From NCBI RefSeq assembly GCF_041379045.1, contig NZ_CP166871.1, positions 1,736,001-1,800,000 of the forward strand: a stretch of 64,000 nt of DNA, read 5' to 3'. The stretch is from Thalassotalea ponticola (lineage in GTDB: Bacteria; Pseudomonadota; Gammaproteobacteria; Enterobacterales; Alteromonadaceae). Each line of letters begins with the position of its first letter. Positions within the stretch are counted from its first letter, which is position 1. Below, one piece after another: positions 19,716-21,080 of the stretch. The translations under genes were made by a program, and so were the position numbers. The notes under the pieces were generated by a model. The model was not told where the DNA came from. It worked only from the letters and a program-made list of their open reading frames with translations, and searched no databases.

Positions 19716-19792
19716 CGCGGGATGGAGCAGCCTGGTAGCTCGTCGGGCTCATAACCCGAAGGTCGTCGGTTCAAATCCGGCTCCCGCAACCA
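19716..19792 (+). tRNA. tRNA-fMet (initiator, CAT), copy 1
   Basis: 77-nt tRNA that starts CGCGGGATGGAGCAGCC, with unpaired first base C, three G:C pairs in the anticodon stem (TCGGGCTCATAACCCGA) and encoded CCA: the hallmarks of the bacterial initiator. Anticodon CAT. Confidence 0.98.
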
Positions 19793-19897
19793 ACTATTTT
19801 ATTTATACACAGTTGTTTGGATATCTGAAAACCTTCCTTAGTAAGGGGAAGAAAAACCTCTTTACTGGCTTACCTACTCTGTTGTAGGTCATTCGGA

Positions 19898-19974
19898 CGC
19901 GGGATGGAGCAGCCTGGTAGCTCGTCGGGCTCATAACCCGAAGGTCGTCGGTTCAAATCCGGCTCCCGCAACCA
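19898..19974 (+). tRNA. tRNA-fMet (CAT), copy 2
   Basis: 77 nt, identical to copy 1. The spacer 19793-19897 before it is unique and holds a small hairpin (CTTCC/GGAAG type) but no tRNA-like repeat. Confidence 0.98.
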
Positions 19975-20030
19975 ATTTTATTAACAGTGTTTGCATAGAC
20001 ACGATTAATAAAACGCCGATATGTTGACGA

Positions 20031-20071
20031 GGTCGTCAGTTCGCTAATACAAGAACGGGCTACCGCAACAA
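20031..20071 (+). repeat. tRNA-fMet 3'-end-like repeat, unit 1
   Basis: The unit ggtcgtcagttcgctaatac-aagaacgggctaccgcaacaa resembles the tRNA 3' part ggtcgtcggttc-aaatccggctcccgcaacca: same start, altered T-loop (GTTC/GAAC stem) and same acceptor strand ending ACAA instead of ACCA. It is the end of a unit of about 97 bp that begins after tRNA copy 2. Confidence 0.85.
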
Positions 20072-20137
20072 ATTCTTATAGAATGAATTAAAACTTCTAA
20101 GGCTTTGTTTTATAAGCATTTATAAAACACATTCGGA

Positions 20138-20214
20138 CGCGGGATGGAGCAGCCTGGTAGCTCGTCGGGCTCATAACCCGAAGGTCGTCGGTTCAAATCC
20201 GGCTCCCGCAACCA
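20138..20214 (+). tRNA. tRNA-fMet (CAT), copy 3
   Basis: 77 nt, identical to copies 1 and 2, with encoded CCA. Confidence 0.98.
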
Positions 20215-20408
20215 ATTTTATTATCAGTGTTTGCATAGACACGATTAATAAAACGCCGATATGTTGACGAGGTCGTCAGTTCGCTAATACAAGAACAGGC
20301 TCCCGCAACAAATTTTATTAACAGTGTTTACATAGACACGATTAATAAGGCGCCGATATGTTGACGAGGTCGTCAGTTCGCTAATACAAGAACAGGCTCC
20401 CGCAACAA
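20215..20408 (+). repeat. Two tandem tRNA-linked units of about 97 bp (units 2 and 3)
   Basis: Each unit runs from ATTTTATTA(A/T)CAGTGTTT through ACACGATTAATAA and CGCCGATATGTTGACGA to a tRNA-3'-like end (20271-20311 and 20368-20408, 97 bp apart) reading GGCTCCCGCAACAA. The acceptor strand is kept exactly while CCA is changed to CAA. Confidence 0.85.
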
Positions 20409-20473
20409 ATTCTTTTAAACAGAATTAAAACGTTTAAGGCTTTGTTTTATAATCAAATATAAAACACATCGGA

Positions 20474-20550
20474 CGCGGGATGGAGCAGCCTGGTAGCTCG
20501 TCGGGCTCATAACCCGAAGGTCGTCGGTTCAAATCCGGCTCCCGCAACCA
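20474..20550 (+). tRNA. tRNA-fMet (CAT), copy 4
   Basis: 77 nt, identical to the other copies, with encoded CCA. Confidence 0.98.
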
Positions 20551-20647
20551 ATTTTATTAACAGTGTTTGCATAGACACGATTAATAAGACGCCGATATGT
20601 TGACGAGGTCGTCAGTTCGCTAATACAAGAACAGGCTCCCGCAACAA
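20551..20647 (+). repeat. tRNA-linked unit 4 of about 97 bp
   Basis: Same unit as 1-3, ending in the tRNA-3'-like segment 20607-20647. The following spacer (aattcttttaaacagaatta-aaacgtttaaggctttgttt) is also shared with the spacers before tRNA copies 3 and 4. Confidence 0.85.
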
Positions 20648-20713
20648 ATTCTTTTAAACAGAATTAAAACGTTTAAGGCTTTGTTTTATAAACTCTTATA
20701 AAACTCATTCGGA

Positions 20714-20790
20714 CGCGGGATGGAGCAGCCTGGTAGCTCGTCGGGCTCATAACCCGAAGGTCGTCGGTTCAAATCCGGCTCCCGCAACCA
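20714..20790 (+). tRNA. tRNA-fMet (CAT), copy 5
   Basis: 77 nt, identical to the other copies, with encoded CCA. Last intact tRNA of the array. Confidence 0.98.
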
Positions 20791-21080
20791 ATTTTCTTAA
20801 ATACGCCCCGTTAAAAATATCTCATCATTTCTTCATTTGTCGACTCAAGCGTCGGTTCGCTAATACAAGAACAGGCTCACGCAACAAATTTTCTTAAGAA
20901 CGCCCGTTAAAAATAACTGATCATTTCTTTATTTGTCGACTCAAGCGTCGGTTCGCTAATACAAGAACAGGCTCCCGCAACCAATTGTCTTAAAAACGCC
21001 GCGTTAAAAATAACTCATCATTTCTTCATTTGTCGACTCAAGCGTCGGTTCGCTAATACAAGAACAGGCTCCCGCAACCA
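20791..21080 (+). repeat. Three tandem tRNA-linked units of about 97 bp, second type (units 5-7)
   Basis: The body differs from units 1-4 (ATTTTCTTAA..ACGCC, GTTAAAAATA, CATTTCTTCATTTGTCGACT), but the end is the same tRNA-3'-like segment (20850-20887, 20946-20983, 21043-21080). Units 6 and 7 keep an intact CCA (GGCTCCCGCAACCA). A more decayed eighth end may lie at 21135-21176. The region 21081-21246 otherwise holds no gene I can support. Confidence 0.85.

Follow-up and report, generated by a model that had tools for sequence, protein, structure and literature searches.

What are the repeated units that lie between and behind the initiator tRNA genes of Thalassotalea ponticola, and are they the debris of unequal crossing-over or working RNA? 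We examined this question in a 64,000-nucleotide stretch of the genome (the window; contig NZ_CP166871.1, positions 1,736,001 to 1,800,000 of the forward strand), in which five genes for initiator transfer RNA (tRNA-fMet) and seven units of ∼97 bp together occupy positions 19716–21080. A first-pass annotation of this DNA had compared the arrangement with the tyrT locus of Escherichia coli, the repeats of which yield rtT RNA, and the comparison proved apt. Judged by their architecture, the window units are of this known, RtT-like kind, whilst being new by sequence: each consists of a trailer segment followed by the 3' part of the tRNA that its operon encodes, with a loop enlarged by a lineage-specific insert. 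The same architecture recurs at six tRNA operons of this one marine genome and across many genera, the large insert of E. coli being replaced by a short one. We are far surer of this architectural part than of any functional role; the complete reading, in which an RtT-like trailer array also acts in termination and processing of the transcript, is a prediction that we regard as evenly balanced.

The tRNA-Met(CAT) genes were called on the + strand by ARAGORN at 19716–19792, 19898–19974, 20138–20214, 20474–20550 and 20714–20790, are identical in sequence, and are all matched by Rfam model RF00005 (61.3 bits for the first). Unit 1 (19975–20071) directly follows the second gene, units 2 and 3 (20215–20311 and 20312–20408) stand head-to-tail behind the third, unit 4 (20551–20647) follows the fourth, and units 5, 6 and 7 (20791–20887, 20888–20983 and 20984–21080) lie behind the fifth and final full gene. 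Their lengths are 97, 97, 97, 97, 97, 96 and 97 bp, all are on the + strand, and all seven end exactly where the first-pass annotation had placed them; its five identical tRNA-fMet genes and its division of the units into two types were likewise recovered. Type A comprises units 1–4, which lie between tRNA genes, share 95–98 % identity with one another and end in CAA. Type B comprises units 5–7, with 92–95 % mutual identity and a C-rich, G-poor linker, where unit 5 ends in CAA and units 6 and 7 retain an intact CCA. Identity between the types is 66–70 %. The ends of type A read TCGTCAGTTCGCTAATACAAGAACAGGCTCCCGCAACAA, with two bases different in unit 1, which carries GGCTACC in its tRNA-derived end, and those of type B read GCGTCGGTTCGCTAATACAAGAACAGGCTCCCGCAACCA, from which unit 5 deviates. 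A plain spacer with a hairpin (20072–20137, + strand) separates unit 1 from the third tRNA gene, and similar spacers are found at 20409–20473 and 20648–20713.

Alignment of the fMet units with the tRNA showed that the 5' strand of the T stem and the following GTTC are kept, that the T loop has gained ∼9 bases, that the 3' strand of the T stem is partly lost, and that the 3' strand of the acceptor stem is kept with its 5' strand missing. The T loop had been described in the first pass as changed, and altered it is, the change now being refined to this insertion. The GTCAG of type A is another matter, as it is the T-stem strand of the relatives' own tRNA-fMet (GTCAG/CTGGC); because of this match, the A base of type A probably represents the older state of the tRNA and not a new change. 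A pattern tried for telling units from tRNAs, DGGCTCCCGCAACMA, failed, as many relatives have TGGCTCCC in their real tRNA-fMet, and the 66 of 246 genomes that it matched were left out of account. For none of the seven units was a full cloverleaf called by ARAGORN or RF00005 (E-values up to 1).

This anatomy bears on two alternatives. Integrating elements classically use the 3' ends of tRNAs, with integrase crossing-over within or close to a tRNA loop, and the units could be the attachment-site scars that such elements left behind. In the units, however, the sequence matches the tRNA to the left and to the right of the changed loop, unlike the one-sided identity of an attachment-site junction; the nearest of the 11 integrase-family matches in the genome lies 29 kb from any array (that of Arg); and five matching stretches of viral contigs hold no tRNA gene, are coding-like by eye and look like chance. 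We disfavour this origin as highly improbable. Scarcely better placed is the suggestion, made in the first pass, that the units are tRNA-like decoys for RNase P or the CCA-adding enzyme. The units do finish in CCA or CAA behind a tRNA-like acceptor strand, and type A units, all upstream of further tRNA genes, have strong predicted folds (z-scores of −2.9, −3.1, −2.9 and −3.75 for units 1–4), in which an upstream UGUUG.CG.GG pairs with CC.CG.CAACA as an imperfect minihelix-like hairpin that includes the 3' end. That hairpin, however, would bury the end, which in type A is CAA, and it is lacking in type B (z-scores of 0.09, 0.23 and 0.38 for units 5–7). With the acceptor 5' strand lost by alignment, the T arm of the fMet units broken and local folding no better than in shuffles over 95 distinct fMet modules from the pattern search described below (mean z 0.04), we consider a decoy function very unlikely.

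The fMet unit of the window was not found elsewhere in its own genome, where the other matches span 14–19 bases; the architecture, by contrast, is found at further operons. Using the last 14 nt of each tRNA as a probe, with ≤ 2 mismatches, we counted copies outside full tRNAs. For the source genome (G000), 23 stretches amounting to 40,121 bases were inspected, which represent 22 loci (L134 overlaps L098) and contain 83 of the 95 tRNA matches of the genome. Cognate extra copies were present at six of the 22 tRNA loci (30 counted, 27 distinct), distributed as seven fMet, seven Val, six Arg, five Lys, one Thr and one Asn unit, and control searches returned one non-cognate, one reversed-body and one antisense match. 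Additional degenerate Thr and Asn copies are visible beyond the two-mismatch limit, and the remaining 16 loci, Asp, Glu, Gly/Leu/Cys, Pro/Arg/His and Met/Leu/Gln clusters included, had no units at the 14-nt criterion. Two further genomes gave similar results: G010 has 17 cognate units in 12 loci (Arg seven, Pro three, Asn and Val two each, Lys, Asp and Leu one each; no non-cognate and one reversed control match), and G017, from a different genus, likewise has 17 in 12 loci (fMet seven, Val six, Asn two, Lys and Leu one each; one non-cognate and one reversed control match). Val units were found in nine of 17 genomes (G000, G002, G026, G017, G010, G008, G006, G028 and G021), with a looser and doubtful match in G004. 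Trailer units with a cognate 3' end are therefore not peculiar to the initiator tRNA, but extend to other operons of the genome, well past 19716–21080; in the window, as in E. coli, they stand in tandem between and behind tRNA genes.

Two other clusters are recorded here as observations in their own right. The window holds a second repetitive cluster at 2251–3764, with 14 tRNA genes (Gly, Leu and Cys) and no trailer unit at the criterion used. At the Pro cluster of G010 (L181), three units of 166–168 bp stand behind tRNA-Pro and keep ∼13–14 bases of the tRNA 3' end; they look hairpin-rich and are constructed more like the tyrT units of E. coli.

How widely the fMet module itself is distributed was examined with a sequence pattern, which matched 68 named stretches of GTDB species genomes. 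An fMet tRNA lies within 1 kb in 41 of these and a partial one in a single case, eight are at contig or stretch ends, and 18, of which 13 are Actinobacteria by title, were taken as chance, a call for which L230 alone was inspected as sequence. The genera with modules are Pseudoalteromonas, Rheinheimera, Thalassotalea, Colwellia, Pseudocolwellia, Arsukibacterium, Alishewanella and Marinomonas, with matches at contig ends in Bermanella; as such, fMet modules are common in marine Gammaproteobacteria, and the rarity at an initiator locus that the first pass had implied does not hold. In a sample of the order, the exact pattern occurred in seven of 394 genomes, all from the window's own family; its absence elsewhere says little, because it requires one particular tRNA 3' end. 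Among the closest relatives, it had been proposed that units absent or scrambled would mark them as crossing-over debris; this outcome did not materialize, as 11 of the 12 fMet loci inspected within the genus have a modified module visible by eye or matched by pattern (G010 being the exception), and nine of the 12 have one by a strict tail criterion, with the locus of G012, cut by a contig end, outside the strict scoring.

Several of these properties would be expected if the units were a by-product of concerted evolution with no function, in which unequal crossing-over occurs amongst tandem identical tRNA genes and edge copies lose their 5' part and drift whilst the 3' part and trailer are homogenized with the real tRNA genes by recombination. 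The units are near-identical inside an array and different between genomes, their 3' ends follow the tRNA sequence of their own genome, their numbers vary, many relatives have none, and several of the operons concerned repeat a single tRNA (fMet, Val, Lys and Asn). Against this, units are lacking from the Asp and Glu runs of G000. Also against it is the insert, for which conservation was scored over 49 rows (48 named loci and the window), giving 983 cross-genus pairs, at insert positions +4 to +13. At these ten positions, which are free of the search pattern, cross-genus identity was 59 % vs 46 % in composition shuffles (an A run within the scored stretch may be residual T loop). The linkers 31–40 and 41–50 bases upstream were at 37 and 39 % vs 37 and 38 % shuffled, and ten tRNA-derived bases were at 80 % vs 40 %. 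The 95 fMet modules themselves were collected with a pattern in which GTTC, CT and a large part of the 3' end are set beforehand, such that their conservation is partly built in, and by organism the set omits 19 of the 68 named loci, one of which (L271) does have an fMet tRNA nearby. By this measure the linker appears randomized whilst the insert is held across genera, and gene conversion cannot maintain the insert because it is absent from the tRNA. The neutral by-product is the main rival to the RtT-like reading, and a possible one, albeit the less probable of the two; it accounts for homogeneity, cognate ends and patchy presence, but not for a conserved insert that is, moreover, common to several tRNA families. 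Recurrence of the architecture across operons and genera opens the choice between crossing-over debris and working RNA to comparative testing.

In G000, alignment shows the units to be pseudo-tRNA 3' portions of varied length, with the acceptor 5' strand gone and a loop enlarged by ∼10 bases. The loop concerned is the T loop in fMet units. Val and Arg units have an expanded anticodon loop and an eroded D arm and lack the acceptor 5' strand, their T arm remaining mostly intact. An Asp unit of G010 has its insert near the D loop, and G006 holds a full-length copy of tRNA-fMet, acceptor strand included, in which a T-loop insert is the sole change. The inserts resemble one another, reading GCTAATACAAGAAC (fMet), CACTAATACAAGAGC (Arg) and GCTTATACCAAG (Val) in G000, GCTAATACAAAGG (Arg) and GCTTATACCC (Lys) in G010, and GCTAATACAAGAGC (Val and Arg) in G008. 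The fMet insert has a 12-mer in common with Arg inserts, a length reached in 0.05 % of 2000 trials with the fMet inserts shuffled, and with Val inserts, where it was reached in 0 %. Averaged over 11 fMet inserts, which are related to one another and, like all inserts in this test, were bounded by hand, the shuffle P-values were 0 for Arg and Val, 0.0035 for Asn, 0.026 for Lys and 0.38 for Thr; for the maximum common stretch they were 0.62 for Asn, 0.17 for Lys and 0.97 for Thr. Automatic extraction of inserts was poor or failed for Lys, Thr, Asp, Leu and part of Val and Asn. On these comparisons, the insert is firmly shared amongst fMet, Arg and Val, weakly with Asn and Lys, and not with Thr. 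A candidate genome-wide element, GCTNATACNAAG, was rejected: it has 16 matches in G000, seven in the Val array and the other nine scattered.

A shared insert might mean that the expanded loop is a recognition site for a putative trans-acting RNA or protein, with the units serving as sponges or landing sites tied to transcription of the tRNA operon. A 12-base stretch common to the T loop of fMet and the anticodon loops of Arg and Val units would suit such a site, as would the 11 bases common to fMet and Arg in G000, the 15 common to Arg and Val in G008, and the insert of ∼50 nt that the Tyr, Lys and Arg units of E. coli have in common. Sharing is not strict within a genome, however, given that the fMet insert of G008, GCTCTTCACAAC, is unlike its Arg and Val inserts; Thr sharing is at chance level and that of Lys weak, a fold signal around the fMet insert is absent, and the inserts could be copies passed between units. 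We regard a recognition site as unlikely, although it is better placed than either the decoy or the attachment-site scar.

Differently arranged inserts were noted in other relatives. At L046 (G017), L056 (G021) and L232 (Rheinheimera soli), pseudo-tRNA-fMet copies of full length have their D and anticodon loops enlarged by inserts, in the form of TTATTTATAAATA-like palindromes; at L232 a CTCTT insert is present in both the anticodon loop and the T loop. In G048, from another family of the order, locus L062 has differently built fMet trailer units with the palindrome CGACGACCAAGGTCGTCG and an insert ahead of the T loop, and terminator-like hairpins are visible by eye behind its last gene.

Returning to the RtT-like array, its units would most likely have arisen by tandem duplication of the tRNA 3' part together with the trailer, spread through unequal crossing-over inside the operon, and would have been retained because they shape the RNA output of that operon. 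Terminal units are putative serial terminators, of Rho type in the fMet cluster and intrinsic in the Arg and Thr clusters; interior units may be co-transcribed, folded and released as CCA- or CAA-ended RNAs like rtT. For the fMet cluster, the relevant signals lie in type B, whose linkers contain C at 0.20–0.24 and G at 0.07–0.11, with YC at 13–18 % (2–4 % in type A), and whose fold z-scores, as given above, are 0.1 to 0.4. Intrinsic terminators (a G+C-rich hairpin followed by a T run) numbered zero in this cluster, with 2.1 expected. Composition and lack of fold make units 5–7 look like a Rho-dependent end, although composition is no proof of one. Intrinsic terminators are present in the Arg and Thr arrays of L101, L095 and L182, and the Arg array of G010 has eight on the coding strand (nine overall vs 3.1 in shuffles). 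If units do end or process tRNA transcripts, the supply of initiator and elongator tRNAs would be under one more layer of control.

A number of observations weigh against this reading. The terminator excess in the source genome is modest, with six in the Arg stretch vs 2.7 (standard deviation 1.9) in shuffles, only two of these on the coding strand, and three in the Thr stretch vs 1.6 (standard deviation 1.3); the Val array of G000 has no coding-strand intrinsic terminator inside its units. In arrays with an intrinsic terminator ahead of each unit, the pseudo-tRNA part would be transcribed solely via read-through, and a terminator role alone would not require a conserved loop insert. The fMet module is, as described, without a local fold signal. 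Furthermore, G010 has no fMet unit, and because many close relatives are without units at a given operon, the units must be dispensable.

Apart from the units, a promoter-like site, TTGCAA-17-TATAGT, lies 5' of the first tRNA gene at 19671–19699 on the + strand; it matches the consensus at 9/12 positions, which is not proof of a promoter. The cluster as a whole has 13 promoter-like sites vs 3.8 expected, although the repeats multiply such sites. Upstream, a divergent gene for an RlmL-like rRNA methyltransferase (17195–19339, − strand; Pfam UPF0020, THUMP and RlmL_1st) flanks the cluster, and downstream a convergent open reading frame of 186 aa (21247–21807, − strand) matches no Pfam family at an E-value of 0.001. 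In the Arg cluster of G000 (L101), terminator-like hairpins were also seen between full tRNA-Arg genes, and this cluster may therefore be several transcripts.

Knowledge of RtT dates from 1991 and began with the tyrT operon of E. coli, the repeats of which contain a Rho-dependent terminator. Another tRNA-precursor spacer, 3'ETS-leuZ, acts as a regulatory sponge RNA; the likeness to the present case is that a spacer becomes a regulatory RNA, and the difference is that 3'ETS-leuZ is not known to be a repeat or to derive from a tRNA 3' end. A repetitive tRNA-Pro/His cluster with pseudo-tRNA copies exists in Photobacterium phosphoreum, a marine gammaproteobacterium. Amongst open-licence papers, we found no settled function for RtT and nothing on such units at initiator loci. 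Published accounts describe rtT as similar to BIME elements upstream of other genes (PMC2965389), and report two RtT-assigned RNAs of Actinobacillus pleuropneumoniae, Arrc20 and Arrc21, which lie beside Asn and Lys tRNA genes, gave Northern signals and have no function settled there (PMC4986893). The tRNA-Other of Bacillus cereus is a pseudo-tRNA with a phenotype, and differs from the present trailer array as a lone gene flanking a genomic island (PMC3399842).

The closest counterparts are those of E. coli itself. At K-12 tyrT/V a unit is built from GGTTCGA, an insert and the last 19 bases of tRNA-Tyr, and the annotated rttR RNA of MG1655 (1287066–1287236) terminates with the CCA that closes the first unit after tyrV, at 1287066. 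Of the seven E. coli loci examined, four have cognate tails (four at the Tyr locus, five at lysT-lysQ, one at lysV and three at argV-argQ), and glyVXY, leuQPV and metZWV have no cognate tail units, which places the architecture at Lys and Arg operons as well as Tyr. The Rfam RtT model matches the four Tyr units at 132.9–137.5 bits and six Lys units at 46.7–60 bits (four of the six matches at Lys loci extend across the preceding tRNA-Lys), matches no E. coli Arg unit at the gathering score, and, as covariance model RF00391, has no match up to an E-value of 1 in positions 17000–24000 of the window or in 13 marine loci. By eye, the ∼50 nt insert is common to the Tyr, Lys and Arg units of K-12 (tyrTV, L113; lysT-lysQ, L304; argV-argQ, L310; lysV, L311). 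It is present in 4251 of 5426 genomes, at a median of six places in each of these, a number that does not support a widely dispersed repeat.

The window units thus resemble the tyrT/tyrV repeats (rtT/rttR) in standing between and behind tRNA genes, in their cognate 3' end and CCA, and in an insert in the T-loop region. They differ in size, at 97 bp with an insert of ∼9 nt vs 178 bp with a GC-rich insert of ∼50–75 nt for the E. coli Tyr units, and in their presence at an initiator locus, the corresponding metZWV locus of E. coli being free of them. One further trait joins the two systems, namely an insert common to several tRNA families: Tyr, Lys and Arg in E. coli and, here, fMet, Arg and Val. 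We tentatively raise the possibility, which we think rather improbable as it stands, of a general, fast-evolving gammaproteobacterial trailer element in which the lineage-specific loop insert of several tRNA families reads out a common trans-acting partner; RtT and the units of the Alteromonadales would then be two versions of one device that couples the transcription of tRNA operons to a global regulator.

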